From contig KN834769.1 in assembly GCA_000827265.1 (NCBI GenBank), positions 127,823-191,822 on the forward strand: a DNA stretch of 64,000 nucleotides. Reading direction: 5' to 3'. Below the pieces are notes generated by a model. It saw only the letters and a list, made by a program, of their open reading frames with translations. It had not been told where the DNA came from and did not search any database. This document shows, one piece after another, positions 1,351 to 41,354 of the stretch. Every line of letters begins with the position of its first letter. Position 1 is the stretch's first letter. This stretch comes from Collybiopsis luxurians FD-317 M1 (Eukaryota; Basidiomycota; Agaricomycetes; Agaricales; Omphalotaceae). Both the position numbers and the translations under genes were made by a program.

Positions 1351-1365
1351 ACTTCAATGCTATGA
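1351..1365. repeat. Left target-site duplication of the minus-strand LINE
   Basis: The 15-mer ACTTCAATGCTATGA here is repeated exactly at 3470-3484. The two copies flank the LINE remnant and its nested insertion. Confidence 0.75.
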
Positions 1366-1533
1366 GAGAGAGAGAGAGAGAGAGATTTAATTATACGGCT
1401 GCAGGCCACCATGTGGAGCCAAGAGCCGGGAATCTACATACTGAGTGTACATGGATTACCAAAGCGACATAGTAATAATCTGGTATCGTAGACGGTGTTC
1501 GTAAGTCGCTGCATTGTAACTGGGTAAGTAGAA

Positions 1534-1547
1534 GTGTAAGTGTAAGA
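1534..1547. repeat. Left target-site duplication of the nested plus-strand LINE
   Basis: GTGTAAGTGTAAGA is repeated exactly at 2901-2914, immediately after the poly-A tail of the inner LINE. Confidence 0.8.
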
Positions 1548-2549
1548 GCCATACTTGGCCTAGAAACGGATTCCATGCATGTCATTAATACAATTAAAAA
1601 AGCACGAGCCATTGAGGATGGAGGATATGAAAACCTACCCAATGGACAACTGGTTAGAGCAGTAATTGCCAGCTTCAGAGAAAGGATGGCACCAGTATAT
1701 GTGAAGTGGGTCAAAGGACACACAGGGCACCCAAGAAATGAGGGAGCAGATGAAATGGCAAAAATTGCACTTACAAAAGGAAAAGCCAGCTTCATCAACC
1801 TTCGCCCATGCAGCACCCTCACAGTGACAGGTTCCAAACTATCAGCACTAACCCAGTCACAAGCCTATAAAGCAATAATGAACCTGAGAGACAGGAATCG
1901 GAAAAAACGCAGGAGAGCTGAGATCAACATCATGAGGGCCCAGAACTGCACTGAGGATCGATTTGAGTACATACCAACAGAGGAACGGATCTGGGAGTCC
2001 ATGCGGAGCAAGGAATATGATCAGAAAATACGAGACTTCCTATGGAAGATAACACATGATGCATACTGGACAGGAACACACTGGCTTAGGGAAAACATGC
2101 CAAGCAGTATGAAAGAAAGAGCAATCTGTAAATTCTGCAATGAGATAGAGGACATGGACCACATCCTAACAAAATGTGATGCACCAGGACAAACCCAACT
2201 ATGGAACCTGACGAGAAATCTCTGGGAAATTAAAAAGTCAGACCTGGAATGGTTTAAACCAACCCTCGGAGATATAATAGGGTGCGGAATGGCTAGAATA
2301 TATGGTCACCATAAGGATAAACCACACCCTGGACACAGCCGCCTCTGGAGAATCATCATTGCAGAAACTGCCTACCTAATATGGACCTTACGATGCAGGA
2401 GAGTCATTGAGTTTGAGGGAGCCCGACACTTCACCGAAGAAGAGCTAATAGGTCACTGGAAGAAAGCAATCAACAGTAGGCTGGAGCTTGACTGCAATAT
2501 GACAAAAAGCGATACGGAACTAAAGCAATCTCCAACGCACTTGTGCTAA
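1548..2549 (+). pseudogene. LINE ORF2 fragment: RNase H domain and zf-RVT zinc knuckle
   Basis: The frame is open from the truncation point (GCC at 1548) to a stop at 2549. An RNase H C-terminal half is visible: an acidic ETDS motif, then KWVKGHTGHPRNEGADEMA, the usual WVKGHxGxxGNExAD signature. About 130 residues on is CKFCNEIEDMDHILTKC, the C-x2-C-x7-H-x4-C zinc knuckle that ends many fungal LINE ORF2 proteins. Near 2510 the frame shifts: the expected continuation (KKRYGTKAISNALVLTTW) lies in another frame and runs on toward 2700. The reverse-transcriptase fingers and palm are missing because of 5' truncation, so the copy cannot retrotranspose autonomously. Confidence 0.85.
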
Positions 2550-2900
2550 CAACATGGAGAGGCACCCTCCTCAATGAAGACTCCCTGCCAAAGGATTGGA
2601 CCACGAAACACGGGGTTTTAGTGGGTATACCCAGTGCGACCACACAACACACAAATGGAATTGGATGTTTCCATCCCCTGGGGACCCCCACACTCAGTGC
2701 GTAAATGCATTTCCTCGTCGAGGCGTGGCACCGATCACACATGCAAATATGCCATATGGTTATGAACAGGTTTTGAAATTTTCTCCTACTGACACTACTG
2801 CGTAAGGACAAGCTACCTTACATCAACTAGCGTGGACTCAAAAGTTGGCGTCGCCGACTGTTTGATATCCTAAAATGCCCCTCCAAAAAAAAAAAAAAAA
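1548..2900 (+). mobile_element. 5'-truncated LINE with poly-A tail, nested in another LINE
   Basis: Flanked by a perfect 14-bp direct repeat (1534-1547 and 2901-2914) and ending in sixteen A residues (2885-2900). The coding part starts in frame at the truncation point and encodes the RNase H and zinc-knuckle end of a LINE ORF2. Truncation at the 5' end, a poly-A tail and a TSD of this length are the signature of target-primed reverse transcription. Confidence 0.88.
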
Positions 2901-2914
2901 GTGTAAGTGTAAGA
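2901..2914. repeat. Right target-site duplication of the nested LINE
   Basis: Exact match to 1534-1547, directly following the poly-A run. Confidence 0.8.
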
Positions 2915-3106
2915 TGGACGCAAAGAAGATAAAACGTAGGGCTGCAGGTATGAGTGACTAATGAGTTAGCGAACGGATCGAATGGAGAGAGAGAAACATA
3001 GAGTAGAGAAACATAGGAATGAAGCATATAGGCATGGAGTCAGTTTGTAACCTGATGAGCCCGAGTTAGGTGGTGCGTAGTGGCGCTGTAATGCGCATGA
3101 GGTTGG

Positions 3107-3463
3107 TTAGTCGTCGCTGTCGCTGGCTTCTGCCGCGATTCTGTCGTCGTCATCGTCTTCTTCCCCTTCCGTCTCCATCTGTGCCCTTTCCTCCTCTTCC
3201 TTTCTTGGTTCTTCCATTTCCTTTCGATTCTTTCCCGTTTTGCTGAACGCTCCACTGGTCTGAATGAATTCCGCCGTTGCCTCAATTCCTTCCTCTTCTC
3301 CTAACAGTTCAGCCAGGTCGAGGTCTTCTGATGCTTCCCATAGAATGTGTCGGTATTCGCTATAGAGTTTGCATGATTGAATTATATGTTCCCATGTCTG
3401 GAGGCGATATCTGCACGGGCATTGGATGTTTTCAGTCGGTACAAATTTGGCATAGTATTCGCC
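3107..3463 (-). pseudogene. LINE reverse transcriptase C-terminal fragment
   Basis: Reading minus from 3463, one open frame runs to a TAA at 3107-3109. It contains CPCRYRLQTWEHIIQSCKLY followed by LLGEEEGIEATAEFIQTSGA and FSKTG, the characteristic zinc-binding end and tail of basidiomycete LINE reverse transcriptases (form CPCG-LQTREHIL-CP-Y then LLGT--GI-AL--FI--SGAFTKTG). An acidic and basic low-complexity tail (EEDDDDD) follows. All upstream catalytic parts are gone, cut off exactly at the target duplication at 3470. Start-truncated, so not a functional gene. Confidence 0.75.
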
Positions 3464-3469
3464 TATAAA

Positions 3470-3484
3470 ACTTCAATGCTATGA
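3470..3484. repeat. Right target-site duplication of the minus-strand LINE
   Basis: Exact repeat of 1351-1365. Confidence 0.75.
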
Positions 3485-3502
3485 ACATATACTACAAATC
3501 TA

Positions 3503-4604
3503 CTATTTTCGTCGAACTCGTGCACTACCAATACTCGGGTGTTTACAAACACCTTTGTAGCACTTCTCGCGCCTACCTCTTCCACTGCATGTTGCGGCTC
3601 GAGGACATTGATAGAAACTACAGACTGCACATTTGCATTCTCGCTTCTTGCCCAGTCTGTTGTTCGAGCTTTCGGTCCGCTGTTTTTTGGTGGTAGGCTG
3701 CTCAGCGGAACTGGATCCGAATGCCAGTGTTGTCTGAAAGTGGGCCATACCCTGTCCCCGAATCTCACCGCCAGAACAGGTATTTGTACCCGACGATGCA
3801 CCGGACTCGTCAACCACTTCAGGTCTGGACTTTTCCAATGTGAGCTGTGATGGATGGACTCAGGCGTTCACGCTTGATTCCTCATCTTCCGGATGAGAAT
3901 CTTGCTGGAGTTATCCTGGGCCAAGGCTGCTATGAAATGGGCATTGGAAAGTGTCCTGCCATTAGCATCAAACTGGGTAAGGACCATGGGGTTGAATGAT
4001 GATAGATCGAGGCCACATATGCCTAGATCAAAGAGCATGATGAGTGCATCTAGCAAGAGTCATTGGATTGCTTACCATTGACAGCTGGGTCAGGTTGTGT
4101 ATCAAGATCTTCGAGTGGGACTGTGGGCAGCACACAGGCTACTTGTTCTGGATCCTGGAGAAGATTCAAGTGGTCCTGAATCATGGCCGCATTTGAGCCA
4201 TTGAGCATAGTTGCCCGAGATGCCTGCCATTCAAGTATCTTCTTGTGGTGCCGCAGAAGCTGCTCAGGGAGTTTATAATACAACCTCTTGCTGGGGTCAG
4301 TCACTGCAGACTCTGCATATTGACTAGTGTATTCCTCAAATTCAACATAGTTGATACCCTTCCAACCTACTCGACTGGTAGACTTTTTTATTCTTTATTA
4401 CAGTAAAGGAACAAGTTCATATAATCTCCAATATGCAAAGAACAATGCGCGACCGCGCAACACAGAAGCTTCACAATAAGCGCACAGCGTGTTACTACTT
4501 TTGACGTCGGGATCGGGCGATAAGCTTCCACGGACATAGTGATTTTCAAACTCCGAGCTCTTGCCGACTGGAGGCCGGGCCTCTGACTCACTGTCAGGCT
4601 TCAC
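3503..4604 (-). pseudogene. Decayed minus-strand gene with a Cys-rich tail, family not recognised
   Basis: Several short minus-strand frames look like exons of one broken gene. At 4604-4398 an exon ends in LCAYCEASV, possibly the start of a zinc finger. At 4304-4062 and 4045-3870 two exons join across a plausible 26-nt GT..AG intron (AVNG | DALIMLFDLG). At 3838-3503 the last part ends in a cluster KKRECKCAVCSFYQCPRAA then CSGRGRREKC, a zinc-binding pattern often found at the C-terminus of fungal transposon-derived proteins. The splice between the last two parts does not hold frame, and no conserved catalytic domain can be named. Probably a transposon-derived remnant; the family is uncertain. 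Confidence 0.3.
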
Positions 4605-7544: not shown

Positions 7545-7737
7545 AATGGTGCATTAACCTTAGGCTCAAAGGCGTATCAAAACTGATGACAAAAATTCAT
7601 CAGACTGACATAGGCGTGAGAGAAATCTGACCCTCAGACATGGCTCGGTAAAGGTAGTTAGTGACGCGCGCATTATCTCACAATACTTATCCCTGTATCG
7701 GCGGGCCGGGAGTATGATTTTAAAGCGAACAGACTTA
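7545..7737 (+). promoter_or_regulatory. Displaced 5' flank (putative promoter) of BTB copy 3
   Basis: This stretch matches the DNA upstream of BTB copies 4 and 6: a block with CAGACTGACATAGGCGTGAG (compare 40880-40900), then GCGCATTATCTCACAAT (compare 31640-31660) and TGATTTTAAAGCGAACAGAC (compare 31705-31720 and 41295-41310). In copies 4 and 6 these lie 50-500 bp before the ATG; here the transposon separates them from BTB copy 3 by 11.85 kb. The TTTTAAAG box may be the TATA-like element; that is inference. Confidence 0.55.
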
Positions 7738-7743
7738 CGGCTC
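7738..7743. repeat. Left 6-bp target-site duplication of the integrase-type transposon
   Basis: CGGCTC, repeated at 19595-19600. The unoccupied paralogous site before BTB copy 6 (about 41315) reads TTACAGCTCCACTGGG, matching the join TTA + CGGCTC + CTCTGGG. Confidence 0.85.
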
Positions 7744-7770
7744 TATGAAGACATTTTTCGTTCAAAATTC
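7744..7770 (+). repeat. Left terminal inverted repeat of the transposon
   Basis: Starts TATGAAGACATTTTTCG and pairs with the reverse complement of 19568-19594 at 24 of 27 positions (mismatches at positions 7, 8 and 18). Confidence 0.85.
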
Positions 7771-7958
7771 CAGACCTTCTGTCGATGGTTTATGATGGGT
7801 TTGACATGAGTTCACTACTGCTTTGTCAAGCGTCTCGAAGGGTTTGCTTCACTCTCCATTGGTTGATTGACATTCTTGGTCCTTCGCTTGACAAGCTAAT
7901 TCGCTCCGTTTGCAAAGCCATTGTTCGGCTACCACTTATTTTCTATAGCTTACCGATC

Positions 7959-8030
7959 ACTCACCTATGCTTTCAAATCACTCACCTATGCTTTTTAAAT
8001 AACTCACCTGCATTTTCGAACAACTCACCT
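7959..8030 (+). promoter_or_regulatory. Left subterminal iteron array (4 x ACTCACCT, 21-22 bp apart)
   Basis: Exact ACTCACCT octamers begin at 7959, 7980, 8002 and 8023, with spacings of 21, 22 and 21 bp, about two helical turns. Sequence between them is only loosely conserved (ATGCTTT-like). The array starts 215 bp from the left end. The same octamer, inverted, is iterated near the right end, so this is likely a transposase-binding array. Confidence 0.75.
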
Positions 8031-8260
8031 ACTGCTTACGAAGAGCTTCATGATTGCTCTATAGCACCTCACCGACGGCTTCATGATGGTATATCGATGG
8101 TCCTGTAAAGCGAATAATGAACTCACTACTAGTATGTGCCTCCATAGCCCGATTACAGGACAGCAAAACTTGTATGTTATCTGTATATATAAAGTTGGCA
8201 AAATGGCGAAACTGATTCTTTTTCACCCACTGTTTAGTCACTCTTTTCTTTCATTATACG

Positions 8261-11200
8261 ATGAGCCTCGGCTCTGGAAACGCTGGCAACACCGGCAACA
8301 CAGACAATATTGGTAATACTGGGGGCGAGGGCAATATCACGCAGCTTCTTCGATCTTTCATGGCTACGCCTAATGCTCAAATGCTGGAAATGTGGAGTCA
8401 AATGACACAGCAGGCTCCTCCTGGACTTCTTCAAGTACGCTTCCTCATATTCTGATTTTTTTCTCCAATGCTAAGTTGTTCAAAAACAGACAGTTCTTCT
8501 CGGTCAACTCATGCAAGGACAGAACAATTCCTCACAAGCATCGTATGTTGCCCAGACTCCGCAGGGGCAGCTTAACTCCTTGCATCAGCAGGTTTTATCA
8601 CAGCCGCAGGCACAGTCACCGCCTGAGCCTCAGCAGTCTCAGCCCCAGTCTCCCCATGTATCTTCACAACTTCAGGCCCAGGCTCCTCCCCAATCTTTGC
8701 AGTTACAGGCCCACTCTCTTCCACAATCCTCGCAGCTGCAGGCTCAGCCTCTTACTCAATCTTCGCAGTTGCAAGCCCAGCCTCTTGCCCAATCTTTGCA
8801 GTTACAGGCCCAGCCTCTTGAGGGTTCTCTGCACCTGCAGCCTGACTCTACCACCACCTCGCAGCTGCAGCCTCAGCCTCAGGGGTTTTCAGCCATGTTT
8901 CCTCCAGGCGGATTGCAGCCGCTTCAGTTGAGCTCCCAGTTTCCACAGCTATCTCAGCTGCAGGCTCTGTCTTTTCCATTATCCTCGGAGGGTCAGAGTT
9001 CCATGTCCAGATACCAACAAACGCCCTCGACTCTTGCAGAACTCAGTCAATCTTTTCGGCCTCCTCTACTGTGTTGTTCCTACAGCAGCATGCAGACGGC
9101 AGGGCCATCAGGAGCCACCAATGGCTATGGCAGTCCAGTTGGTATGCAGGGGCGCGATCGAGTCACCACTGAGCCAGGTTTTGCTGGCCTCACAATGCTC
9201 CAACGAGTAAATCACACTTGGTTGGAGCATGCGAACTCGTCTCTCCCTCAGAAATGTAGGCCTCGAGGCAAGGCAATACGACCTCCTGCCCTTGCATGTC
9301 AAGAAAGAGACCCCAGCGTCGAGGATATCATCATGGTTGCTTCTGGGGGAGAACAGGTTGTGAACCTCGATGTACTTGTGTATCCACCAATGCCATCACA
9401 ATCTGATATCAAGGTATGATATATAGTTTCTACTGCTGTATGTATTCTGATCTTGCGTCTAATCAGTACCTTGATCTTCCCAATTGTGCCACTTTCTATG
9501 ATATCAACAAAGATAGTTTTCGCATGGTTCTCTCTGCGTTGGATCTGTATCACCAATACAAAGCCCTTCCTATCTCTACTACTGTCTTCAACCTTCTCTC
9601 CGACATTACAACCAAACTTAGGGTCACTTATAATCTTCCCTCTGTCTCGTCTCCATTGTGTCTTGCTTCCCATGAGGCTCTCCCCATCCAACTCCTGGGT
9701 TTTAGTAATCGGGGTCAAATTAACGGGGCCCATAGGTCGGTCAAGATGAAGCCGATGCATTTTGAATTGAATATGACTGTCCAAGATCTTCTTGGTAATA
9801 GAGCTGAATATGCCCCACCGAAACTCACCATTACCCGCGATCAACATTTTCAGCTCCACGTTGGTAAGTAAAAAGTTTTTCGCACACTCTATCTTCTCAG
9901 GCTAATGTCCAAATCCCAGTCATTCGTCAGTACCCACTGAAGGCTAATGTCAGTCTTTCTGAAGTCTATTTGGGGACGGACCATGTAGTCAGGCCTCATC
10001 AATGCCTTTCCAAATGCATTTACAAAATATTTTCTCATGATACTGATGCAAATCTTAACGTCCATGCTCTGGATGAGGAGTTAATGGAGGATGAGTGTGA
10101 GGAGGGGAGCGATAATACACAGGACGAACAGGTACTCATTATCATGATGGTATGGCCTTTTGATTGATTTTCTTTAGGATACAGCGATTGTGGCACAGTC
10201 TCTCCTCTCTTCACATTCTATGTCGCCTCCGGTAAGTCAATTGATTCATCTGTCATAGTTTTACTCAGACGCTAATATACTTCTGCAGGTTTCAACTTCG
10301 ATTGTACATAGTTCTGAGAGCCCTGTATGTCAATCGTCTAGTCTATATCCCTTTCTGACTGATATCATGAAAAGGCTACCTCTGGAAATAGTGCCAATGT
10401 CACTCTGCAGCAAGAGGAGTCTGTTACTCCCTCTGTGCCTGTACGTCAAAGCAAACAGTTCCTGTACTTGCAGTACTCATATTTTCTTTGTAGGTACAAG
10501 GAAATGAAGTACAAAAGCTTTGGCAGGATCCCTGGTCTCCACATACTCGCTCCTCTGTTGTACCGATATTCAACCACAATGAATGGACTGAACGTATCTT
10601 TGAATTGATTGCCACTCTCCATGATGTTCCGCATCTGGAAGTACATGGGGCAAATCAAAAGGAGCTTGCAGAAAACTTCATCAAGCAAATGCGAGAGTGT
10701 GCACAGAGCGGAGACTGGAGAAGGATATTAACTCTGCATCGACATTTCATGCGGTAAGTGTTAACCACCTGTTGTGCATGGGGTTGCTCACACTATTTGT
10801 TGCAGCATAAACCCTCATACAAGGGCATATGTCTCATTGGGGCCGGGTATTGAACAAGAAACAATGACAGCTGTCTTTGATCATTTCTTTAGCAGTTGAA
10901 AGGATGAGTTTTGTACCCCTCTATATGAAGGTTATGACACTCTTCATTCATCGGCTTCACAAATCACCTCTGAGAAACAGGAAGATCTGATTCTCTTCAG
11001 TGCAGCTACATCACTGGCCCTCATCTATGGCCAATACCCGGGCAATATCAATCCCCTTCTGCTTGTGTATCTTTTCAACAACTGTAATCTTGCAAGTTTG
11101 CAATGTGATTTAGTCATTTTATATACTCCTTCTCTGGCGCAAACCTTGAATCGTTGGTTAGAATTCGGGCATACAGATAATGTCGATGAGTTTGCAGTGC

Positions 11201-12172
11201 ATTTTGCTTCGTACCACAATTTACAGGTTCATCTTTTTTTAGCTATTCCAGATATATCCATGAACTCTATACAGGTTTCGGCCCTCAATGGACGTTCAGA
11301 AGCTGGGCACTCTTTGCTTGCTTGGGAGATGCTCCACAATGCGGTTGTAGGTCCAGCAGATGTTGAAAAGTCAGTGCATTTCCAGGCTTTCATCAAAGGC
11401 CTTCGCCTTCCATGTGAAAACATTGACTTGTTTGATGTGAGTTTCACATGCTCTTGATGTTTGTGGAAGCACTAAACTATTGTATCCAGGTATCTTCCAG
11501 TTTCTCAGGTGGTGTTGAGGCATTCATTGATACCGCTTTGAGTTCAGAAATCACCAGCTTTGGTGATCTCAATATAAGCTTCAGGAGCAATCTCTCGGAT
11601 GAGGAAGAAGAGGCCTTTGATGACGCCATGGCAGAAGCTGGTCAACCCTTTGCTGGAAATACCTTTTCGGGTTTCATTCAAGACTTTCTTGCCAATGTTG
11701 GAGCACCATGTCCACAGCTGCTGGGCTCTATTCAAGGTTCTTTCAGCCCAGAAGCCAGAGCCGCTTTGTCGGCAATCCAGTCCCCAACTTTTAGGATGCG
11801 GATGCTATGCTGGGCTGTAACAGGTGCTACGCAAGTCTTACAGGAAGGTGAACCTATAAAGGTGAGTCCATCGTACTCCATGTAACTGCCAGTTTATCCT
11901 CATGCTGCCTTCAGATTTACTTGGTCAGCGACAGGGACCCTTCCTATGTGCCTCAAGGTCTTGCAGAGGAGCAACATTGTGCGTATATCAATTCAGGTGT
12001 CTGCTCATTCAAGACATGTGTCCGCACTATGCGAATACCTGCTTCATTTCTCATCTGGCTTCTGAAGGCTGACTACGATCCAAACTCAGAGCCTCAGGAT
12101 GTCAAATCAGCGGTCCACCACTGGTTGCTCGTACAGATATTAGAATCCATTGGGTCATATACTCTTGCTTGA
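8261..12172 (+). pseudogene. Transposon-borne HECT-like protein gene (12 exons, one in-frame TGA)
   Basis: Twelve exons: 8261-8434, 8490-9413, 9467-9863, 9920-10131, 10178-10231, 10289-10324, 10375-10440, 10494-10753, 10806-11226, 11275-11436, 11490-11861 and 11915-12172. They total 3336 nt (1111 aa), an exact multiple of three with all GT..AG introns. The N-terminus is Gly/Asn then Gln/Pro-rich with an 11-residue repeat (QLQAQPLTQSS type). The last 430 residues resemble a HECT E3 domain: an N-lobe-like block (SLGPGIEQETMTAVFDHFF then LILFSAATSLALIYGQYPGN) and a C-terminal VCSFKTCVRTMRIPASFL, like the HECT hTCFNxLxLPxY active-site loop, with the candidate catalytic Cys at 12017-12019. A TGA at 10897-10899 breaks the frame. 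The HECT assignment is inference from spacing and motif; a HECT-derived non-catalytic protein is possible. Confidence 0.6.
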
Positions 12173-12479
12173 ATTGGACTTGACTGTGTCCTCCATTCGT
12201 TGTGTTTTCCACTCCTTTCCCCCTTTACATATGTTCATTTTAATTTTCTTGTGCGGTTATATTATTACACACAGAGTTATTACAGTAGGATCTGATATTA
12301 GTGAATTATATCCACTTGATCTCTAGTCAGTGTGCTTGCATTCGGAAGTTGTGGTGGTTGTGCATGAAATCAACCACCAGTTTCATCGGCGAATGCTGAC
12401 ACATCCTCCTCTCCCTCTTCATCCACTGGGGCAAAGTCTCATTCCAATCTGTTTATCAGCCATCCTCATTGCTCAAGTC

Positions 12480-14651
12480 ACCCTCCCTCTACTCTGTTTC
12501 TTCTGATTATCTTTCTCCTTTGGATCCCACCCTCCTGCAGAAGCGGTCAGACCTCATTCATTCGGCGGCCGTACTCCTCAAAGAAGTGTAATTGGTGAAG
12601 TATAACTGGACAATGGGAGCAATTTAGTTCACTAACTGGCATACAGACTAACTGCTCAAGTCCAATCCATCACCTGCTCCCTCCTCCGGATTGAACTCTC
12701 CATAACTTCCAACTTCTGCCGGGACAAAAAGATTCACTCTTCCTCCGAATCGTTCCATATTCTCATCGAAGATGTTGATGGCGAAGTCATCCTCTACCAC
12801 AATACCTTCCTCCTGCTCCAATGGTACGCTGAAGACAAGCATACCATCACTTTCAGTGTCCCGATGTTCAACTCCCCTGTTCCGCCGAACTACTACATCT
12901 CCGTTATCTCAGATAGATGGTTACATGCCGAGATGAGACTGCCTATCAGCTTTACACATCTGATTCTGCCAGAGAAATTCCCCTCGCCAACTCCCTTGCT
13001 GGACTTGCAGCCTCTGCCATTGAGCGCCCTGCCCAATAAAGAGTTTGAGAGGATCTATGAGGATGAGGAGAGCGGGTATAGGATCGAGATGTTCAATAAA
13101 AACCAAACACAGGTGTTCCAGGCCCTGTATACCTCCAATGAAAACATCTTCATTGGTGCTCCTATGGACTCAGGCAAAACTATCTGCGTGGAATTTGCTC
13201 TCCTCCATCTCTGGTCAAAATGCACTCGTGGCCAAGCAGTGTGCATTAAACTGTTCCAAGAGATGGTAGATATGCGAGTGCAGGAATGGAAGGCAAAGTT
13301 TGGTTCGGTACAAGGTGGCAGACGGGTGAAACTATGGCCAACTTGCAGCTGTTAGAAAAAGGCGACATTATAATTTGTACACCATCTCAATGGGACGTGC
13401 TCTCGCGCCATTGGCACCAATGCAAAAATGTGCAAACTGTTGCACTACTGATCGCTGATGAAGTGCACCTCATAGGAGGCGAAGTAGGTCCCACATACGA
13501 GGTCATCCTTTCCCGTACATGATACGTTTCTGCGCAAACAGAATTGAAAACACAAATCGTTGCACTGGGTGTTAGTTTGGCCAATGCGGGGGATCTAGGG
13601 GAGTGGATAGGCATTCCTTCTCATGCGATATTCAACTTTTTACCCAGTGCGAGACTGCTGGATATGGACATCCACCTCCAGTCCTTCTCTATAACCCATT
13701 TCCCCTCACTCATGCTCGCAATGTCCAAGCCTGCATATCTTGCTATCTCAGAATATGCTCCTTCCAGACTGTCACCATATTTGTCCTGTCGAAAAAGCAG
13801 TGTCAGCTGATGGAGGATGATTTACTTTTACATGCAGCGGCCGAGGAGAAGGCAGATAGGCTTTTGTATGTAGATGTTGACGATTTGGAGGTACATTTGG
13901 AACGTTTGGCAGATGAAGGCTTAAAAGAGATGTTGAGACATGGAGTGGGGTATTTTCATGAGGCTCTGAGTAAGCAAGATAAAAGGATTGTGCGAAGGTT
14001 ATTCGAAAGTAGTGCTGCGCAGGTTCTGGTTGCATTGAAGGTATTGAAACTTCCCCTTTCTCCCTGATAGCTAGCCCATACTTCTGATCCCTTCAGGACA
14101 CAGCCTGGTCCCTCCCTGTCTCCTCCTATGTGACCATTATCATGGGTGTTCAATACTATGAAGGCAAAGAACATCGATACATAGATTATCCTGTTATGGA
14201 TGTCTTGCTCTCAAAGCACTTATTGGAGCTCGTCAAAACTACTTTAACTGATTTGATGAACTCGAAGTGTATCGCTATTGGTATGATCTCTCCCATTCTA
14301 ACCTGCGCAAATGTTTCTAATTCTCTCTGTAGAGGACAAGTCAGATGAAGTCAGCCCTCTCAACCTGGGTATGATTGCAGCATATTATGACATTTCCTGT
14401 ACGAGCTTTTGTTTTCTAATGTCGGATGTACCCTAATAGATTGCGCAGATGTCACTGTCGAGGTCTACATGCTCTCTCTCAAAGAGCACACTAAACTCCG
14501 AGGCCTCCTTGAGGTCGTCTCTTCTGTCGAATTCGAAATTGTCCCCATCTGTCAACACGAAGACATCCTTCTTTGTCGACTTCACAAATCATGCCTCAAA
14601 TTGGAAAAATTGGTGCATTCTGTGTTCTTAGATATCATAATTGCCAGTTAA
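12480..14651 (+). pseudogene. BRR2-like: Captured fragment of the spliceosomal RNA helicase gene BRR2
   Basis: Conceptual pieces follow BRR2 in order. First, end of cassette 1 (YSV-DY, LLQKRSDLIHSAAVLLKE, about 12500-12588). After a jump, the cassette-1 Sec63 end and linker (LIEDVDGEVILYHNTFLLLQ; PNYYISVISDRWLHAEMRLP; LPLSALPNKEFERIY). Then cassette 2 with a degenerate Walker A (APMDSGKT), [50 protein letters not shown] and YYEGKEHRYIDYPVMDVL, and a piece of the second Sec63 region (VTVEVYMLSLKEHTKLRGLL). Introns persist (about 14041-14097, 14281-14332 and 14400-14449), so capture was at the DNA level. Lesions: frameshifts near 13315 and 13770, TGA at 13520-13522, and internal deletions (for example after YPVMDVL). 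A host locus for full BRR2 must exist elsewhere. Confidence 0.85.
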
Positions 14652-15235
14652 TCTAGTCATAACTCTTTATTAGGGTATCTGAGTATGATTGGTAATTGCA
14701 ATGATAGCTTGGAAGATAGGCAAAGAGCAATGGAGAATGAGAGTTATTAGGGTCAAGAGGTGGTATACCAAAGGATTTGAACATTTATTAGTACCTATGG
14801 AAGACGAGCAAAGAGCGATGGAGAACAAGAGGTCAATATATGATTATTTACAATGGTGGTTTGGAAAGCGAGCAAAGAATGACAGAGAAAGTGATTAAAG
14901 TAGAGCTATAAGATAGCGTTGAATCTCAGTGCAACTTTGTAACATGAGAGTTTGCGAGAGTTGGGCTGCCTGTCACTCAACCAACGGAGCATCAGCAGAA
15001 TCTATGGGACAACAAGGGGGATCCGAAACAAAATAACCACCATGTCCGAATAAAAAGGTAATTCTAATCCAGACATTATAAAGATCATGTTGATCAAGGT
15101 CTAAAATATTGTCTATGGTAAGCTTCAACAACAGTAGTCGTAAAAACAAGGCGAACCTTTAGTAATACCTTGTACAGGAATACAAGATTGATCCCAGATG
15201 TGTGTCTTTGTGACACATTCAGCCCACTCATACAG
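14652..15235. other. Transposon interior, no supported gene
   Basis: AT-rich DNA with a degenerate internal repeat (CAAAGAGCAATGGAGAA near 14717 and CAAAGAGCGATGGAGAA near 14809). No frame with family motifs. Confidence 0.5.
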
Positions 15236-16159
15236 TCAGGCCTTCTCTTCGAAAGATGTCAAATTCCATTTCAGGTGCTTGTTGATAATTGTGCGAAGCG
15301 TCTCCATTCGATTGCCACGATACAAGATTGAATATCTGCTGAGACGAAGGCCACCCTTGTAACCCATAGTCTTCACCAGGATATCACGGGCGCACTTCCA
15401 ATTGACATAAATCTCGAACGTACAATTAGTTGTACCTTTGTAGTTGTAGATGGCAGGATTTGGATCAATGTTTAGGGAGCGGCAGTAATCAAAGAAATCC
15501 AAGCTGTCCATTCGAATCCTGGTTTGGGATGTTTGAACTACTGGTGAGAATGGACCTGACCAGGGTTTACTCGAAACCACAGGCAGCGAGGGATGAGAAT
15601 AGATATTTGGTGGGCTTAGAGATGATAAAGAATGTGAGAAGGATCCCATTTCGGAGGCCATAACTGAAGATAGGTCAAAGCTACTGCCCACGAACTGCGG
15701 TAGATTGTCAGGTAACGGCAAGTTGCAGTGCTGGCGCTGGCACTGCGAAAAGCTTGGGTTGTAAGGGTGGAAGCGCTGTCGGGAAGGAGGGCCTAAGTTC
15801 AACACTTCCATTTGTGAATGACCATAGGGAGAAAAAATATTGTTACTGTTATCTGTAAAATACAGTTCAAGTCAATTGTAGCACTAAACTTGTTCGAGGC
15901 ACAAACCAAGTACTGGATCAAAACCTATAGTCAATGGTATATTATACAGCAACAGTCCTTCCGACGGAAATGAAGATGCATGCAGTAGCGAGGGCATGGG
16001 TAACCATCCAGTATTGCTCACAGCATTCAACCTTGGTGTGGGACAAAGCTGCTGAGGATTTGATTCAGCCTGTACTTGAGATACTTCAGCGAGTAAATCC
16101 TGAAATTGGACATCAGAAAATCCTTCAAAAAATAAAGGTATTTCAGCGTCCTGCTCCAT
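15236..16159 (-). CDS. Transposon accessory protein of unknown family (divergent gene)
   Basis: Two exons on the minus strand, 16159-15907 and 15852-15236, joined by a 54-nt intron (donor GTTTGT, acceptor TTTTACAG). They total 870 nt (289 aa) in frame without lesions, the only intact cargo gene. The N-terminus is acidic (MEQDAEIPLFFEGFSDVQFQ), the middle is Ser/Pro/Asn-rich and probably disordered, and the C-terminal 100 residues look folded, with hydrophobic and basic alternation (DFFDYCRSLNIDPNPAIYNY, NWKCARDILVKTMGYKGGLR, ETLRTIINKHLKWNL). I recognise no family. It is transcribed away from the transposase across a gap of about 400 bp. A DNA-binding or transcription-factor-like role would fit the acidic N-terminus and basic C-terminus, but that is speculation. 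Confidence 0.65.
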
Positions 16160-16564
16160 TGAAGCATGAAATAAAAGGAGGAAAAGAACGAAAGAGAGAG
16201 AGGCGACGATCCCTTGTATTTATACATGAATGCTGTCCCCAGTAAGTAAGTATTTACAAGCCGAAACCATTTTTTTGCCACTGATTAGCGACATTACCAA
16301 GTTCGGTAGATGGATTTCGATTGTTATTGCTGATTATGCTTAAAGGCTAACTTTACTTTTTGGATGTAAGTAACTATCTGAAGCCTTCAGTTTCAGGAAA
16401 ACACTATATATAAATCAACCACATACTGCTCGTCTTGCTTGGGGAATCGAAAACATGGTGGTTGACCAATGAAGCCATGTTCGGATCAATTTAAGTCAAG
16501 TATGTGATCGGAGAAGGTGAATGTAACGCGTGCCACATTTTAACTTTCTGCTCAAACCAAAGCA

Positions 16565-18565
16565 ATGCTGGCCTATCTTAAATTCCACATTAGTCTTTGT
16601 CTGATTCTAGGCTTCATATCTTCCTGTATTGCCCCTACTCCATCCAATTCTTCCTCCACCAGCACAAATGGCCTGAGTTCTTCAGGTGGACTCTTGGACA
16701 CCTTCAGGTCCTACTATGAACAGTTTTACACTGTCGTAAATCAGGTTCATACTGAACCTACCGATTCTTTTCAGCTGCAAATGCTTGGTGAGAATCTAGA
16801 GTCCTTTTCTCAAATTGTAGATCAGGTATACCTCAGAAGTGTCATTTCCCCAGTTTATCGGTTTACTTATAACGGTTTTCATACATTGCTTCTAGCATCA
16901 AACTATCTTTGACCCTGAGGAGGCACATATCATAGTTAACGGAGTCCAAACAATGCTACTTGACGTTAGGACTCTGTACGAACAAAGCGTTGAGGCATCA
17001 CATCACGGGCAACCAGAAGTTGTGTTTCAAGAGCACACAGGGTGCCGGGGACGTCCTCGTACTGTTGTCAATCCAGATTTTCTTCGATTTGCATATCATC
17101 ACCGCACGACCTCAGGCATCAGTCATTTTCTGGATGTTTCCCGTTCAACTATTCGTCGATGTCTTCTAGAAAACAATATTGCTCTTCCTGGCGCTGATCC
17201 ATTCACATGCTCTTCTGAAAGCAGTGATACCCAGGAAGATGTCTTCGAGGGAGTGTTTGATAATGGACCTATTCCAGAGTCATCTGAACTGCCTGAAATT
17301 GTTCAAAATGAAGCTGCATCTATACCCTCATCTTCTTGTTCATACTTGAGCTCTATTGAGGATCAGCAGTTGGACTCCATGTTAGGTCACTTGCAGGTTC
17401 ATTTTCCTCAAGCGGGCATTAGAATGCTGGAAGGAATGCTTCGCAGCCTTGAGATCATTGTTCCACGGGAGCGTATTCAACAGTCACTCATTCGTATCGA
17501 CCCTATCCATAGGATCTTTGATCACATCCGAATTGAACGCCGGAGATATAGTATTCCTGGTCCCAATTCTTTGTGGCACCACGACGGACATCATCGTATG
17601 CATTTTTATTTTCTTACTAACTTGGATTGACCGATTTTCATAGGACTTATCTGATGGGGTATAGTAATCCATGGATTCATCGATGGATACTCTCGCATGA
17701 TAACTGGGTTGCGAGCAAGCAACAATAACCAAGGTCAAACTGTCCTCTCTCTGTTTATATCAGCAGCTGATCAGCATGGTATCCCTTCTCGGGTACAAGG
17801 AGATCATGGGATTGAAAATATTTGGGTTGCCGCATTCATGGATTACATTCGAGGAGAAGGCCGTGGTTCGTACATTTGGGGAAGGTATATTGATTCATAT
17901 ATCACATTTACTCTATTTTGACGGAGATAATGTTACCTTTTAGGTCTGTCCACAATGTTCGTATTGAGCGGTTATGGGTGGATGTCAGTCATTACTGCAG
18001 CCAGACATGGCATGATATGCTTACCCTCCTGGAGTTGCATCATGGACTTCAGGTTTCGAGCCCTAATCACATCTGGCTTCTCCAGCACCTTTTCCTTCCC
18101 GTGATCAATGCCCAACTTCAATTTTTTTCTGATTCATGGAATTATCACTGAATTACCCAGCGCCGTCAGCATGGTCCCGCTCAGAGCCCAATAGAGATGT
18201 TTGTATTCGATTCTTTAGTTCATGGTGTTCGAGGAGATTCACTTGCTCAAGCTGCTATGACTGACGAAGAGCTCGAGATGTTTGGTGTGGATTGGGAAGG
18301 ACTGCAGGATGAGGTGCTGCTGCGTACCCTTCGGCAGAACTATGCGCATGATGGGGCAGGTTCTTGGCTCAGCCGGAGAGGTCCTCCTCCAGATCTCAAT
18401 GAAGTTGTTGTTGATCCCCCATCCGGTCTATTGACGCAAGAGCAGGTTTTAGTCCTTGATGCGCAACTACAGGATCATCATCGTCTACCTTGGGAGGCAG
18501 AAGTTGTTTGTTTATGGGTAGATGCCCTTGCAATGGTTAAAGTCATGTACCCCGATGATTTCTGA
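16565..18565 (+). pseudogene. HTH + DDE integrase (rve-like) transposase, two in-frame TGA stops
   Basis: Four exons, 16565-16825, 16896-17595, 17644-17884 and 17944-18565, sum to 1824 nt (607 aa) in frame. A GRPRTVVNPDFL segment leads into a helix-turn-helix (ISHFLDVSRSTIRRCLLENN). The catalytic core follows: first Asp in LWHHDGHH, the strand VIHGFIDGYSRMITGL, second Asp in RVQGDHGIEN, and the Glu in SVHNVRIERLWVDV. This is an integrase (rve/IS3-like) DDE fold, common in mushroom and invertebrate transposons. Stops at 17652-17654 (ATC TGA TGG, expected LIRW) and 18149-18151 (CAC TGA ATT ACC CAG, expected Arg) both look like CGA to TGA changes. The C-terminal region (SPIEMFVFDSLVHGVRGDSL) is otherwise well kept, so decay is recent. 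Confidence 0.85.
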
Positions 18566-19190
18566 TTTTAATTATCACTTAGATGATCTTTTATTCGAGC
18601 GATATTTATTCTCACAAATGTGAATTATGTGTATAGAAAAATCACCTTCAGAGATTCCATCACAGAAAAAGAATACTTTCCCAGCCTATTATTCTCGAGA
18701 GATGGAGCACTCCCCCTGCTGGATCAAAGTATGTGGCGGCCTTCTCTGGAACTCCTGTATTTTGCTGGAGCCCATGAAGCCTATCAGATTGAGTATTATC
18801 ACATACGAGAAAAGAAAGGTAGCTAGAGTTCTTCTCATCGCATCCGACATTCCAGGTTACTGGGGCTTCAGTAACACGAGTAGAAACAAAATCTGGGTGA
18901 GTTACCCTACCTGGGAACTCTTTCTCTGACTTCTGTAGCCCATAAGAGATCAATGAGGAAGGAAGGACTATGACCTTCGGCTACGGGAGGCAGATGACAT
19001 TGTGCGCCAGTCAAAAACTAAATTCCAAAACTTGCCACTCGGCAGGTGGATGATATTTAATCGTTCTCCGGAATTCAGGAAATGAAATACTGTAGTACTT
19101 CCCAAGCCTGCTCTGGTTGTAGCCTCGACTAGAAGTATGATATAAACGGGCCCAGATGTCCCAATAGTCTGTAAGCGAATTACTGGACAG
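18566..19190. other. Right internal non-coding part of the transposon
   Basis: No gene is supported. Short frames lack motifs; the stretch precedes the right iteron array. Confidence 0.5.
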
Positions 19191-19194
19191 CCCT

Positions 19195-19289
19195 AGGTGA
19201 ATGCCGGACAACCGTAGGTGAGCTGCCGGACAACCGTGGGTGAGTTGACAGACAACCTTAGGCGAGTTGACAGACAACCCTAGGTGAGT
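19195..19289 (-). promoter_or_regulatory. Right subterminal iteron array (5 x ACTCACCT-like, inverted)
   Basis: On the plus strand AGGTGAAT, AGGTGAGC, GGGTGAGT, AGGCGAGT and AGGTGAGT begin at 19195, 19216, 19238, 19260 and 19282, spaced 21, 22, 22 and 22 bp. They are the reverse complement of the left octamer. The extended unit (minus strand, ACTCACCTAGGGTTGTC) is better conserved here than on the left. The array ends 305 bp from the right terminus. Confidence 0.75.
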
Positions 19290-19567
19290 TACCAGAGTGC
19301 AGTCGGTAAGCAACTGGATGCCGAACAGGAGCAACTTAAAAGTGATGCACACACCACTCGAGATCCAAGCACATAACTCTGCACCGTATTTACATTTAAA
19401 CTCAATTGCAAAGGTCATGATTCGAGTGAAGTACTCATTTCTCAAAGCAATTAAGTATCCGGTGGACAACCGAGAGCAGAGGGCAATCAATTTCTGATAG
19501 GCCAGGGTGGTGCTCAAGGTTTTCATTGTGCCAGAAGACAGAGGCAAACGAATTCATGGAGGTCACA

Positions 19568-19594
19568 GAATTTTGACCGAAAAATGCGTTCATA
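19568..19594 (-). repeat. Right terminal inverted repeat of the transposon
   Basis: The reverse complement begins TATGAACGCATTTTTCGG and matches the left end at 24/27 positions. It is followed directly by the CGGCTC duplication. Confidence 0.85.
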
Positions 19595-19600
19595 CGGCTC
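19595..19600. repeat. Right 6-bp target-site duplication of the transposon
   Basis: CGGCTC, identical to 7738-7743, continuing into the BTB copy 3 leader (CTCTGGGAAAGCCC). Confidence 0.85.
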
Positions 19601-19642: not shown

Positions 19643-20771
19643 ATGGAATGGGATTCGATTCTTCAGTTTCCCGATTTCCAAGATAATGATTCACAGTTCA
19701 TGTACAGTTATGCTGCGCCCATCATGCAAATGCCAACCCCTCCGGTAAGGCAAATCCTTGCTCTTTTTTTTATCGGCATCTCAGATCAGATGTAGATGGA
19801 GAACTCGCAGAATAGTGATGTTGCTTCTGATAGCATTGAGCGTGTCATGATTTCGACTACATTCTCTGCTCATGCAAAATGGCACGCTCTTCCTCCTGAC
19901 CTTGTGTTTGCGACGTCCGATTCTGTTCGGTTCTACGTCCACTCTCATATCATCTTGGCAGCATCAGATAATCGATTCCACTCCTTAATTCCGACCCTCT
20001 TGATAGATCAATCATCCAATCCTGAGATTTATGTCCCCGAGTCTTCCGAAACATTTAATATAATCCTTCATCTCATATACAACATACCTTCACACCAGTA
20101 TTCTCCTTCATTCGATACCGTATCCAAGGCCGTTGACCGACTTTCGTTCTACGGGATAATCGCAAAGGCACACATCAGTGCCAAAACACCTTTGCATAAC
20201 CTCATTCTTTCCTTCGCACCCATCTTACCCATTCAGGTCTACACCCTTGCCGCCAAGCATGATCTTCTCGATTTAGCAATCCCAGCCTCTCCTCACCTGC
20301 TCTCACTCAATTTCTCTACAATCGACCAGGAGATGGCAGAGGCCATGGGACCAATTTATCTTCGCAAGTTGTTTTTCCTACATATTGGTCGTTCCGGTGC
20401 TCTTAAAAGGGTCAGAGAGAGACTCACAGTGTCGGTTCTGCCTTCGCTGATGTTTGAACAGCTTTTGCTGGAACCACCCCATCCTCACGCTCCTACTGCT
20501 AAGTGTAGCTTCAACGATCAAAAATCCTTGACTCGTGCTTGGGCATTGGCTTCAGCCTATCTTGCTTGGGACGCTCGACCAGGTGTGTATTCAAGACTCA
20601 AATCGTGACTAATGAGCTCTCATCTCGGATCCTAAAGATCTATCCATAGGAGCCTTGGAATCGTGTCTTAAACCTTTGGCTGATCATCTAGCGTGCGACG
20701 AGTGTAAAGGAAGCTTGCAGGTCTGCGTCGAAAATCTCGTTATAAATTGGTCACAAGTGAAGGTATTGTGA
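19643..20771 (+). CDS. BTB/POZ domain protein, copy 3 (ORF intact, promoter displaced)
   Basis: Exons 19643-19744, 19796-20410, 20462-20582 and 20638-20771 sum to 972 nt (323 aa). It starts MEWDSILQFPDFQDND like copies 4 and 6. BTB core from about residue 60 (HALPPDLVFATSDSVRFYVH) to HLIYNIPSHQY at about 125, then LAAKHDLLDLAIPASPHLLS. It ends in NWSQVKVL at a TGA just after a potential donor. All splice sites are canonical and the frame is clean. The start codon lies 43 bp from the right TSD of the 11.85-kb transposon, so its original promoter is now at 7.5-7.7 kb. Unless the element supplies a promoter, expression should be lost or altered. Confidence 0.82.
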
Positions 20772-21824
20772 TGTTTGACCACTTATAAGTTATGTTAACT
20801 GGGGATGATTGATCCATAGTCCCCGACAGCGCACCATTTGATCATCAATATCTCCACCTATGCATTGGTAGGCATTACTCAGGTCTCTGCGCAAACACGG
20901 CAGCAATGATGAGACATGGGTGTGAGCCACAAAAAAAACCTGGCGATGTCTGTCAGGTGTAGCATTGCAGTCTTTCCTGTATTACTCTATATTTGATTTG
21001 AGCACTACATTTGTATGTGTATCTATAGCTAACCAGTGTAAGGACGTGTTCATCAATTCCTCTTTGACCTCACCGCTCATACTTATCTCTGCCTCCCTTT
21101 TACATGAGATTTCAATGCTGTCTAGCTTCAGAGTTTACAACTTCATTTCGAGCAGTTTCGAGCCCACTACTTTAGCCCAGGTGATTCTTTGAAGGAGGAC
21201 CGCTTCGACCAGCGCGCTCGGCTCGGCTAGCTGTGGCTCAGCTATGGCGGCTTACACTCCGACGAGTCAGTAGTAATCAGCTTGGCGCGCGATGGCTCAA
21301 GCCGCATGTCGCACCCCTGCTTGGCCTCAAGCCAAAATCGCGCTATTCGGTCCTAAAACCGACGGTCGGCACATGAAGGTGGCGTACCTGTGAACCAGAC
21401 CCACAACTCCCGGGCCCGAGCTGATTAGTAGCGTTTGTTCTTCTTTTTCGCACTGTGATACCTTCTGATCCCATTACAAAGCCAGCGAGGTTAATCTAAT
21501 TTTGAACGGCAAGATGTTCAAGGAATTCATTTGGCCAAACAGTTCCCTCCTACTTCATGTTGGCTTAGCAGCTAGTGAACAATGGCTGAAAGACACTATG
21601 TAGGGGAATCCTTGTCATTAATATAGCAGTTATCAATAGGGCCTGTCCTGTAGCGGAAAATGATCCGACTTTCTCGAAAATCTATTGCCTAACAAGTAAC
21701 CCTTTTTTTGAGTGACAACGAGTGACATTCCTCCCTGGGATATCGATACAACAACATTCATTTCTTGTTCAACTTAGCATGGTATTAGACAAGATCCATG
21801 AATCTCCAGTATTTAACATGTGCT
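20772..21824. repeat. Segmental duplication block A, copy 1 (matches 42473-43520)
   Basis: Runs colinear with the DNA after BTB copy 6, for example GTCTGTCAGGTGTAGCATTG at 20950 and 42645, and AACAGTTCCCTCCTACTTC at 21538 and 43285. The block has no coding potential I can support. It includes a GC-rich stretch near 21200-21400 with GCTCGGCTC-type direct repeats. Confidence 0.7.
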
Positions 21825-21829
21825 TCTAG

Positions 21830-22201
21830 TGTTAGAATTCTCAAGTCCACGAGCACGTGATAGTCAGGTGGTTGCGTGGTGTCCTGTGGCTGTCGGATTA
21901 AGTCTGGATGTATGGTTTTCTACTCTCTCTTTTGCCTCCATGCGGGTATCTCTCCACAGTTGTTTCACTGCTCATCTTTATTCCCTCTCTTTTACTTTAT
22001 TCCCTGTCCTCATATGTATGTTATTTTATATTAACCCTCAGAACTCCTTCTTCGTTCTGAGGGTACATCTCTTATTCCTTCTATTTGTTGCTAGTTACTT
22101 ACCTTACCTACAGTTTTGTGTACTTACATAGGACTTAGGTATGCAGAAAACTCCTTCTTTGTTCTGAGGTTTTGTGTACTTACGTAGGACTTAGCTTAAC
22201 A
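21830..22201. mobile_element. Solo LTR (372 bp) with 5-bp target duplication
   Basis: Starts TGTTAG and ends CTTAACA, giving TG..CA termini with a perfect TGTTA/TAACA inverted pair. Flanks are TCTAG (21825-21829) and TCTAA (22202-22206), a 5-bp TSD with one G to A change. The duplicated locus at about 44513 has the empty site (CTTCTAGAACTCCAAC). No internal retrotransposon sequence remains, so it arose by LTR-LTR recombination. Confidence 0.8.
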
Positions 22202-22393
22202 TCTAAAACTCCAATGATCAACTGATAGACTACGGTGAAGTAGATTGCTGATACTTTACTTATTCTATGTTGTAATAACAGTTGACATACATTACGAGGG
22301 GACAATGATCGATGACCCCTGGAATACATATTGTATGACCTGGAGGCTGGAAAGCATTCATATATTTTCTGTCTGCATTTTTGGTTCTGCAGT

Positions 22394-22680
22394 ATGAGTT
22401 CTTCTGGTACCATAAACACTGAATACCCTGCCTACGATGAACAGATTGACCCTGGTGCTGCTGAACATGAAGCTCTTCTGCCGACTTCCAACCAGCCTGG
22501 GCTGATCCACAGGAGATCCAAGCGTCTAACCAAGAAATTGTTATGCACCCAGCCTAAATTTTCATTCCTTCATTTTGCTTTCAGCGTTTGCAATTGGAAT
22601 ACTCGGCTGTCTACTTGTCCAGTATGCTTTTCATGATCCAACAGGCGGCATCTCAGTCTGTCAGACTGATGTAAAAACTG
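22394..22680 (+). pseudogene. Truncated, frameshifted copy of the histidine acid phosphatase gene
   Basis: Begins MSSSGTINTEYPAYDEQIDP, nearly identical to the intact gene at 44773. One extra T near 22575 shifts the frame within the membrane-anchor region (PKFSFLHFAFS instead of PKFSFLHLLSA). Similarity stops at about 22680 (after CAGACTGATGT), where duplication block C begins. The catalytic RHGARYP region is absent, so no phosphatase can be made. Confidence 0.85.
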
Positions 22681-23819
22681 ATCCGGATTACCAGAATTCA
22701 ATTGCAGCAACACTCATTGGCATAATTTGTGGTGGATAGGTTCACCTTGGGCTGTATCCCCCATATTGATTATGCATGGTTGAAAGCTGTGATTCGGCAT
22801 AATGAAGACGAGGAGAGAAGGTTGGCGAAGAGGCGAATGACAATGATGAGAACGTTCAGTGTTCCAGGGGGTAATGAGAGGTATGTATCTTGTACAAGGA
22901 AATTCAGTATTTTGTCTTGAACACAGTGGAATGGACGAGCTTGAAGCCCTGAGTTTCCAGCAATTGTCACAAGAACTCTTGAGCAATTTCAGAGGATCTT
23001 CATATCCATCAATGGGTTTGCGATGAGCCAGCTCTCCAAATTGCCAGTGTCTGGCCTGGACATACCATTAGTGGTTCAACCTGGACTTGACTTGGGATCT
23101 CCCTGGCAAGAGCTGTGACCTCCATGAAACCTCCTGAATTCTTCCTTCGCTTTGAAATTCTACCCATACGCTGGGATGACAGTTGGCCATGTCCAAGTCA
23201 AAAACATGTGTGAAGCTCACGCTCACTCACTTTGGATCCTTGGGATGTCAAGCAGAGATAACAAGGGGATTTGGGTACAGTACCCTTTTGCCCTTCTTCA
23301 GAGGCCAGCCCGTCCAATGCCACCAAACCGTGATCTAACACGAGCTGCTCAACCTGTAAGTTTTACTGGAATCTGAAAGACAAGAATGGAACGTCTGCAT
23401 GCGTTGACTCTTGACCTGCACTGCAAGGAGACTTTTCATTGGAGCATCCATCTCTGTAAAGCCAACCTAAGCATTCATACGTAAACCTTTGAAAGCTTTA
23501 GAAGAAAGGGCAAAAACTTTCTATTATACCATCAAGCAGAGCGATACAGCCTCTCAATCAAGTCCCCGATCTGCCCGAGAGTATGTCATATTTGGAGAGC
23601 ATAGTCGTCAGTCCTGTCAATTTTTTTGTGGCAATATCCAAGCCATTATGCCTCCCTTAATTTTTGTAATACACAATTTTTTCTCCTTGTTTTATGCCTT
23701 CTATGCGTCATCGAGTAGGTCCACAGACGTATATAAACACAGAAGAAAAAGTCGACTACGCAACACAAAAGAACCCTTCCAACACTTACTACTCATATTC
23801 GAGCTACCACTCTTGAACG

Positions 23820-24274
23820 ATGACGAAACAAGCCAGCGCCGACAACACCAGCGCCACTTACGAAGTACGTATATCTAAAGAACCCTGCCTTTTCTTGGCT
23901 CACTACTGAGAATTTGTAGGTTGGAGACCACGTTCAGTACCAAGCTGTTGGTGGTAGCAATGTCCCAAACTCCACTACTCAAGGAGAGGTTACTGAGGTT
24001 ATTACTGGCAAGGAATCTGCTGGTGAGACTGGTGTTCAAGTCAACGTATGTCCAATTTTGCATTTTCCGCTTTCTTACAGTTCTGATTCAGTTATTTAGG
24101 CCTCTACTGATGATCCTTGATATGTTATCCGCAACGATAAGGTTAATTGTCATTCTTTGGCTGAGTGGCTCTACTCCGCAACGAGACCAATAGAATGCTG
24201 ACTCTGAAAGCTCTTGATAGACCGGGAAGGAGACTGCTTACAAGGAGAAGAATATCGAAGGAACAACCAAGTAG
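23820..24274 (+). pseudogene. HVA1/TUDOR (DUF2945-type) small protein, copy 1, TGA-disrupted
   Basis: Same four-exon layout as copy 3: MTKQASADNTSATYE, then VGDHVQYQAVGGSNVPNSTT with GEVTEVITGKE, then a short exon and TGKETAYKEKNIEG. The family (hypervirulence-associated TUDOR-domain, DUF2945) comprises about 70-residue proteins with a G-D-x-V start and a DDPRYVI-NDKTGKEA end. Here the Arg codon of DDPRYVI is TGA (24118-24120), whereas copy 3 has CGA at the same place, a single C to T change. The other exons are intact. Confidence 0.78.
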
Positions 24275-41229: not shown

Positions 41230-41354
41230 ATACTCTCCAATGTTCTCTCTGTATCGGCGGACCGGGAGTATGGCACGTTCAGTTTTTGGGCTGGATTTTA
41301 AAGCGGACAGACTTACAGCTCCACTGGGAAAACCCTTTCGCTCTTCAGTCAAGG

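Follow-up and report, generated by a model that had tools for sequence, protein, structure and literature searches.

A probable IS3EU-type DNA transposon with a HECT-like second gene in Collybiopsis luxurians

Described relatives and the Collybiopsis luxurians locus

Integrase-type DNA transposons of the IS3EU/GingerRoot type are characterised, in the available parts of their published description, by TA..TA termini, a 6-bp target-site duplication (TSD) and a DDE core without an HHCC finger (PMC10045372). An 11,851-bp DNA transposon is inserted at positions 7744-19594 of a 64,000-nucleotide stretch from Collybiopsis luxurians FD-317 M1 (the window; C21:127823-191822 in a 200-contig assembly of 64.26 Mb), positions below being those of the window unless a contig is named. 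It shares with that description, as far as the available parts extend, the TA..TA termini, the 6-bp TSD and an integrase-like DDE core with similarity to IS481/IS3-like models and no HHCC finger, and differs in possessing a HECT-like gene. Because ends, TSD and core agree with this description, no undescribed superfamily is needed, and the element appears to be of IS3EU type, a placement made by comparing these three features with the published account rather than by a tree. A probability of roughly 0.78 is assigned to the reading that an IS3EU-type transposon has inserted as a single copy at 7744-19594 and that its second gene, of predicted HECT fold, is likely regular to its lineage.

Multi-gene IS3EU elements have been described in other fungi, as far as the accessible passages of the two sources go. 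Styx of Zymoseptoria resembles the window element in its IS3EU-like transposase, 6-bp TSD and extra genes, some of them genus-restricted, but measures 7.9 kb and carries GATA, CCHC and DUF3577 genes where the window element has the HECT-like gene, an orphan gene (gene 3) and a piece of BRR2; its terminal inverted repeats (TIRs) are 36 bp long, and its stop-bearing copies can be moved in trans (PMC10853768). The TET+ IS3EU elements of rusts are likewise multi-gene, with a 6-bp TSD, TA ends and extra enzyme genes in fixed order, but those genes encode an alpha-kinase and a TET/JBP dioxygenase, the ends read TAYGG..CCRTA and the TIRs exceed 30 bp (PMC12730594). Within the Agaricomycetes, copies under the same superfamily name have been annotated as repeat counts in Phlebopus (PMC12411881) and Ganoderma (PMC8955403), the passages concerned giving no gene content. 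The term HECT occurs in none of PMC12730594, PMC10045372 and PMC10853768, and the literature searched (titles and starts of abstracts among the matches listed; subscription papers and Repbase excluded) yielded no report of a HECT-like gene in a transposon; as a partner of an IS3EU-type transposase, such a gene is apparently unreported there.

A ubiquitin connection is known from another integrase-type group. Ginger elements have TGTNR termini and TSDs of 4 bp (Ginger1, CCGG/CCGT) or 4-5 bp (Ginger2/Tdd), and the ubiquitin-pathway proteases OTU and Ulp1 have been noted on integrase-type transposons, according to the parts of the source available (PMC2836005). Ginger1 thereby resembles the window element in linking an integrase-type transposase to ubiquitin-pathway domains, but there the OTU or Ulp1 protease domain lies within the transposase itself, behind TGTNR ends and a 4-bp TSD, whereas the window element has a separate ligase-fold gene, TAT..ATA ends and a 6-bp TSD (PMC2836005, in part).

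Boundaries and insertion site

The limits of the element and its empty counterpart are as follows.

Positions 7738-7743, unstranded: left TSD, CGGCTC, an exact copy of the right TSD.
Positions 7744-7770, plus strand: left TIR, 27 bp, starting TAT and paired with the right TIR; the tip occurs also at C26:158786-158828.
Positions 19568-19594, minus strand: right TIR, 27 bp, ending ATA and paired with the left TIR; the right end occurs also, with its tip changed, in a derivative on C9.
Positions 19595-19600, unstranded: right TSD, CGGCTC, an exact copy of the left TSD.
Positions 41294-41551, plus strand: paralogous empty site, with CAGCTC where the element site has CGGCTC, from alignment of the joined flanks.

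The TIRs, with termini TAT..ATA, match at 24 of 27 positions. The window contains 266,680 pairs of exact 6-mer repeats separated by 300-16,000 bp; when these were ranked by the inverted match of their 27-bp ends, the pair 7744/19594 came first and the runner-up reached 18/27; the best inverted matches in five Markov-shuffled windows were 17, 18, 18, 18 and 19 of 27. A second scan of ten regions including the window, for TA..TA ends, at least 15/20 TIR matches, an exact 6-bp TSD and a length of up to 16 kb, a limit blind to the 34.5-kb element on C26 considered below, returned this pair alone.

The insertion lies directly upstream of a BTB-type gene (19796-20608), and the empty site lies upstream of its paralogue, which begins at about 41497; the Pfam match at the BTB gene is slightly under cut-off. 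When the flanks are joined, the block spanning the junction aligns to the empty site without gaps for 28 bp on the left and about 30 bp on the right; the right flank continues in homology for about 250 bp with five gaps (3, 6, 2, 1 and 8 bp), and the left flank at 7657-7716 also resembles 41215-41272, beyond an indel of about 20 bp. The ratio of observed to expected CpG is 0.55 in the element against 0.88 in the remaining window.

The initial annotation had called this a complete, integrase-type, multi-gene DNA transposon, possibly IS3EU-like or related, with exact ends, TIRs, a 6-bp TSD and a paralogous empty site. Ends, TIRs and TSD are confirmed by the scans above, the empty site by its gap-free junction block, with small gaps farther right, and the type by ends, TSD and DDE core. 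The word 'complete' applies to the ends but not to the genes, as both the transposase and the HECT-like gene contain in-frame stops. Its suggestion of a possibly undescribed family gives way to the fit of ends, TSD and core with IS3EU/GingerRoot (PMC10045372, in part), and multi-gene IS3EU elements are known from Zymoseptoria and rusts (PMC10853768 and PMC12730594, in part).

The transposase, the HECT-like gene and a second element

Two large genes carry the comparison with other elements.

Positions 8261-12172, plus strand: HECT-like gene spanning 12 predicted exons, with 1,111 codons ahead of the terminal stop, from open reading frames (ORFs), relatives and predicted fold.
Positions 16565-18565, plus strand: transposase gene, 4 predicted exons, about 607 codons, from ORFs and an alignment of relatives.

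The transposase has a predicted catalytic triad D317 D374 E409 (DD34E), with 56 and 34 residues between, conserved in 14 aligned relatives except for two gaps at E. It matches PF24764 and resembles IS481/IS3 models; similarity to PF00665 (rve) is weak, falling under cut-off both in the window ORF and in the relative P0004. Among 26 transposase relatives, no zinc-finger model was matched at E <=0.01, an HHCC finger upstream of the core thus not being seen, nor was any OTU or Ulp1 model, and helix-turn-helix models were weak, each in one or two of the 26. The transposase profile gave no sequence match in PDB at E <=0.01, and the predicted structure was poor in the core. Polinton/Maverick elements carry DNA polymerase B and capsid-type genes; no gene of either kind was found in a Pfam scan of a subset of ten ORFs of the element. 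The search returned 402 protein relatives, the best 120 of which were inspected by name; the nearest among the matches listed is from Lentinula edodes, and those named are all presumably Agaricomycetes. One relative, P0062 of Ganoderma boninense, is a predicted protein joining the PF24764 transposase domain with PF12134 and PF10596, which we take to be PRP8 (spliceosome) domains; it is possibly an annotation fusion, and curious beside the BRR2 piece of the window element.

The HECT-like gene, whose splice sites were picked by eye (GT..AG plus frame), has nine protein relatives in Lentinula, Marasmius and Paramarasmius, drawn from the 7,991 scored candidates sharing most words with the query; three are named 'HECT domain-containing' in UniRef. 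Pfam HECT gave no match at E <=1 in six of the nine or in the window ORFs scanned; the only rows for the protein in Pfam and NCBIfam were weak and sub-cut-off (DUF433, E 0.0015 in a window ORF; DAAF9; PqqD_rel), and its profile returned a single PDB row by sequence (E 0.21). The model of relative P0126, with pLDDT mostly 70-94 over residues 205-660, dips to 54 and a mean of 65, returned HECT ligases in all 33 best Foldseek rows and aligned by VIA to both HECT lobes over residues about 217-713, although whole-length TM-scores were low. The relatives of the window gene are accordingly predicted to have the bilobed HECT ubiquitin-ligase fold. A Thr-Cys motif, present in the window protein and in eight of the nine relatives, is a candidate equivalent of the known catalytic Cys of the HECT C-lobe. 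The initial HECT-like call thus stands in the fold of a relative and is corrected to one predicted 12-exon gene, with HECT not visible in Pfam.

Both genes are interrupted in the window. Codons 324 and 470 of the transposase are in-frame stops, and 14/14 aligned relatives have Arg at the position of the former; the HECT-like gene has one such stop, at codon 739, where eight of nine relatives have Arg. Because of these stops the window copy is likely dead unless aided by an intact copy, and it may still be movable by such a copy, should one exist, by analogy with Styx as described in the available passages of PMC10853768. Synonymous sites were saturated for estimation of the ratio of nonsynonymous to synonymous substitution rates (dN/dS).

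A search of the genome with the transposase gave 13 matches, the window included. The nearest lie on C28 (56% identity), C26 (51%) and C74 (48-58%), and in all three the exon that matched is followed some 1.6 kb downstream by a right tip (weaker at C74, with five mismatches), the corresponding distance in the window being 2.0 kb. At the DNA level C28 and C26 are 77% alike as far as the end of the TATA tip, where the similarity stops, and their right boundary is thereby set independently of the window; no left tip was present in the 30 kb read at C28 and C74.

At C26 the right end falls at 587256 and is followed by TTAAAG, and a HECT-like gene lies at 617-620 kb on the same strand as the transposase. 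Were the two parts of a single element, TTAAAG and then a left tip would be expected just upstream of the gene; within 1.5 kb upstream, TTAAAG was found, followed by TATGAAGGCAATTGCCGGACAAAAACC, at 621779. The likely second element with a HECT-like gene and a transposase, C26:587256-621779, would thus measure 34,524 bp, with exact TTAAAG on both sides, TAT..ATA-type tips, and the two genes in the same order and orientation as in the window; it was read at 584001-604000 and 617058-622000, about 13 kb between lying outside. The window and C26 HECT-like proteins are 26-48% identical by segment. A third element, C23:108205-109880 (1,676 bp), has TAT..ATA at both tips, TIRs matching at 16/20 and flanks CCAGGT/CCGGGT (5/6). 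Three elements therefore have 6-bp flanking repeats, exact in the window and at C26 and with one mismatch at C23. A lack of further copies sharing these ends, or TSDs differing in length, had been named as evidence against a transposon; other copies do exist, two of them related elements with repeats of 6 bp (one exact, one 5/6), which speaks in its favour.

The recurrence of the pair in the C26 element, with order and orientation unchanged, makes it likely that the HECT-like gene belongs regularly to this transposon lineage and is no chance passenger. In Marasmius tenuissimus a HECT-like protein, PM082_023297, and a transposase, PM082_023307, are each encoded on a contig of 484,332 bases, very likely one and the same. 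We lean slightly towards the wider proposal of an IS3EU lineage in marasmioid mushrooms with a HECT ligase as its second core gene, steering host silencing or repair.

The best-surviving alternative, though an improbable one, is that the element acquired the HECT-like gene from its host at random, as it did the BRR2 piece, and that the gene plays no role in it. The window element did capture host DNA, and eight of the nine HECT-like relatives have no visible link to a transposase among the matches listed; against this, the diverged window and C26 genes both lie between left tip and transposase in the same orientation, and a 185-aa query found no further HECT-like copy in the 64-Mb genome, hence no free host gene was seen. 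Doubt might instead fall on the C26 element itself, as chance neighbours 30 kb apart, the right half being a transposase and the left half an unrelated HECT-like gene: at 34.5 kb it is three times as long as its counterpart in the window, and the reading leaves a gap of about 13 kb, but the left tip was sought at a given place, where TTAAAG would recur by chance about once in 4,096, and the coincidence is judged quite unlikely. Membership of another integrase-type superfamily (Ginger1/2, Polinton/Maverick) or of a new one is very improbable, in that the weak rve similarity, the large size and the ubiquitin-pathway domains of Ginger1 transposases are outweighed by TAT..ATA ends and a 6-bp TSD where Ginger has TGTNR ends and 4- or 4-5-bp TSDs (PMC2836005, in part), and by zinc-finger models matching 0/26 transposase relatives.

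On the preferred reading of an IS3EU-type element with a regular HECT-like gene, the integrase-like transposase likely cut the element out of a former site and inserted it at 7744-19594; it would bind the TIRs, and perhaps the subterminal repeats spaced 21-22 bp, and join the element to a target cut with a 6-bp stagger, gap filling then yielding the TSD. The HECT-like protein would help the element by attaching ubiquitin to a host or element protein, candidate targets being the transposase and, on the host side, silencing or repair factors, a role that accords with the suggestion of ubiquitin-pathway involvement in transposition in the available parts of PMC2836005. The element would also have taken up its BRR2 piece as host genomic DNA and have decayed mainly through mutation at CpG sites, the outcome to be expected of a methylated element. 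A ligase-fold gene kept beside the transposase in two diverged elements would offer a way to study an E3 carried by a transposon and to find what it targets.

Subterminal repeats, gene 3 and captured host DNA

The remaining features of the element are two mirrored arrays and two further coding regions.

Positions 7959-8031, plus strand: four copies of ACTCACCTR spaced 21-22 bp, from a motif scan against shuffles.
Positions 12461-14469, plus strand: partial BRR2 copy in three aligned blocks with intron sequence retained, from alignment to the native C17 locus.
Positions 15236-16159, minus strand: orphan gene 3, with two predicted exons encoding about 283-289 aa, from ORFs and a public protein, the start read by hand.
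Positions 19194-19289, minus strand: five copies of ACTCACCTR (<=1 mismatch) spaced 21-22 bp, inverted relative to the left array, from a motif scan.

The BRR2 blocks are 91, 91 and 87% identical to the native locus, native stretches of about 1.0 kb and 0.34 kb being absent between them; the right border, 14469, is where the native sequence compared ends and is thus not fixed. Retention of predicted intron sequence in the aligned blocks points to capture as genomic DNA, not cDNA. Over 2,000 aligned bases, CpG decay ran at 76/254 CpG bases in the element direction against 7/114 in the opposite one, with 5.4% divergence outside CpG. The captured helicase of the initial annotation is thus borne out as a partial BRR2 copy, and its equal treatment of helicase and HECT-like gene is not, the latter being common to the second element and the BRR2 match not being found in other copies, in the parts read. 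In this element the capture of a host gene in genomic form is clear, and the native gene serves to polarise the decay of the captured piece.

Gene 3 is 98% identical over its full length to GYMLUDRAFT_58524 (Collybiopsis luxurians FD-317 M1, Omphalotaceae), its own public record and the only protein returned by the database search; no Pfam or NCBIfam row was obtained. At C26:576186-577870, a weak copy of its C-terminus (41% over 41 aa) and the adjoining exon 1 of a transposase, 36% alike over 87 aa, are divergently oriented, the arrangement also seen in the window. Given this recurrence of the divergent pair, gene 3 may also be an element gene.

Mirrored subterminal repeats are a common form of transposase-binding site, and by analogy the ACTCACCTR arrays are perhaps putative sites of this kind. 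In 300 shuffles of the end the motif averaged 0.11 copies with a maximum of 2, a control somewhat flattering because the motif had been chosen by eye beforehand. Isolated copies (<=1 mismatch) occur at 11859, 13596 and 18894, with five more in the window outside the element; the arrays are not conserved at the ends of the C26, C28, C74 or C23 relatives.

Further fragments are scattered through the genome. At C26:158786-158828 a 43-bp match (91%, from element base 1) repeats the left tip, alone, its partner tip being absent in the 20 kb read there. A deletion derivative at C9, about 420861-421321, has the right end (tip changed) along with inner pieces, and no match for the first 271 bp of the left side. 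A tip pattern of this subfamily matched five places genome-wide, C8:440400 and C40:21664 among them, and that of the other tip three; a reversed control pattern matched none. A copy at C21:67175 is 89% like C23 from the tip inward, with no far end in the 600 bases read, and tips on C98 and C103 (three mismatches) have no partner within 3 kb.

Around more distant transposases, no convincing TIR plus TSD was found for the copies on C20, C93, C131 and C89. Blocks on C20 and C93 are 92-93% alike around one such transposase with long open frames, and a 3.26-kb block (the whole span compared) at C131:9106-12369 and on C96 is 96% alike around another. Within the window, two further 4-kb stretches are low in observed/expected CpG (1-4000, 0.69; 20001-24000, 0.63), which suggests more decayed repeats.

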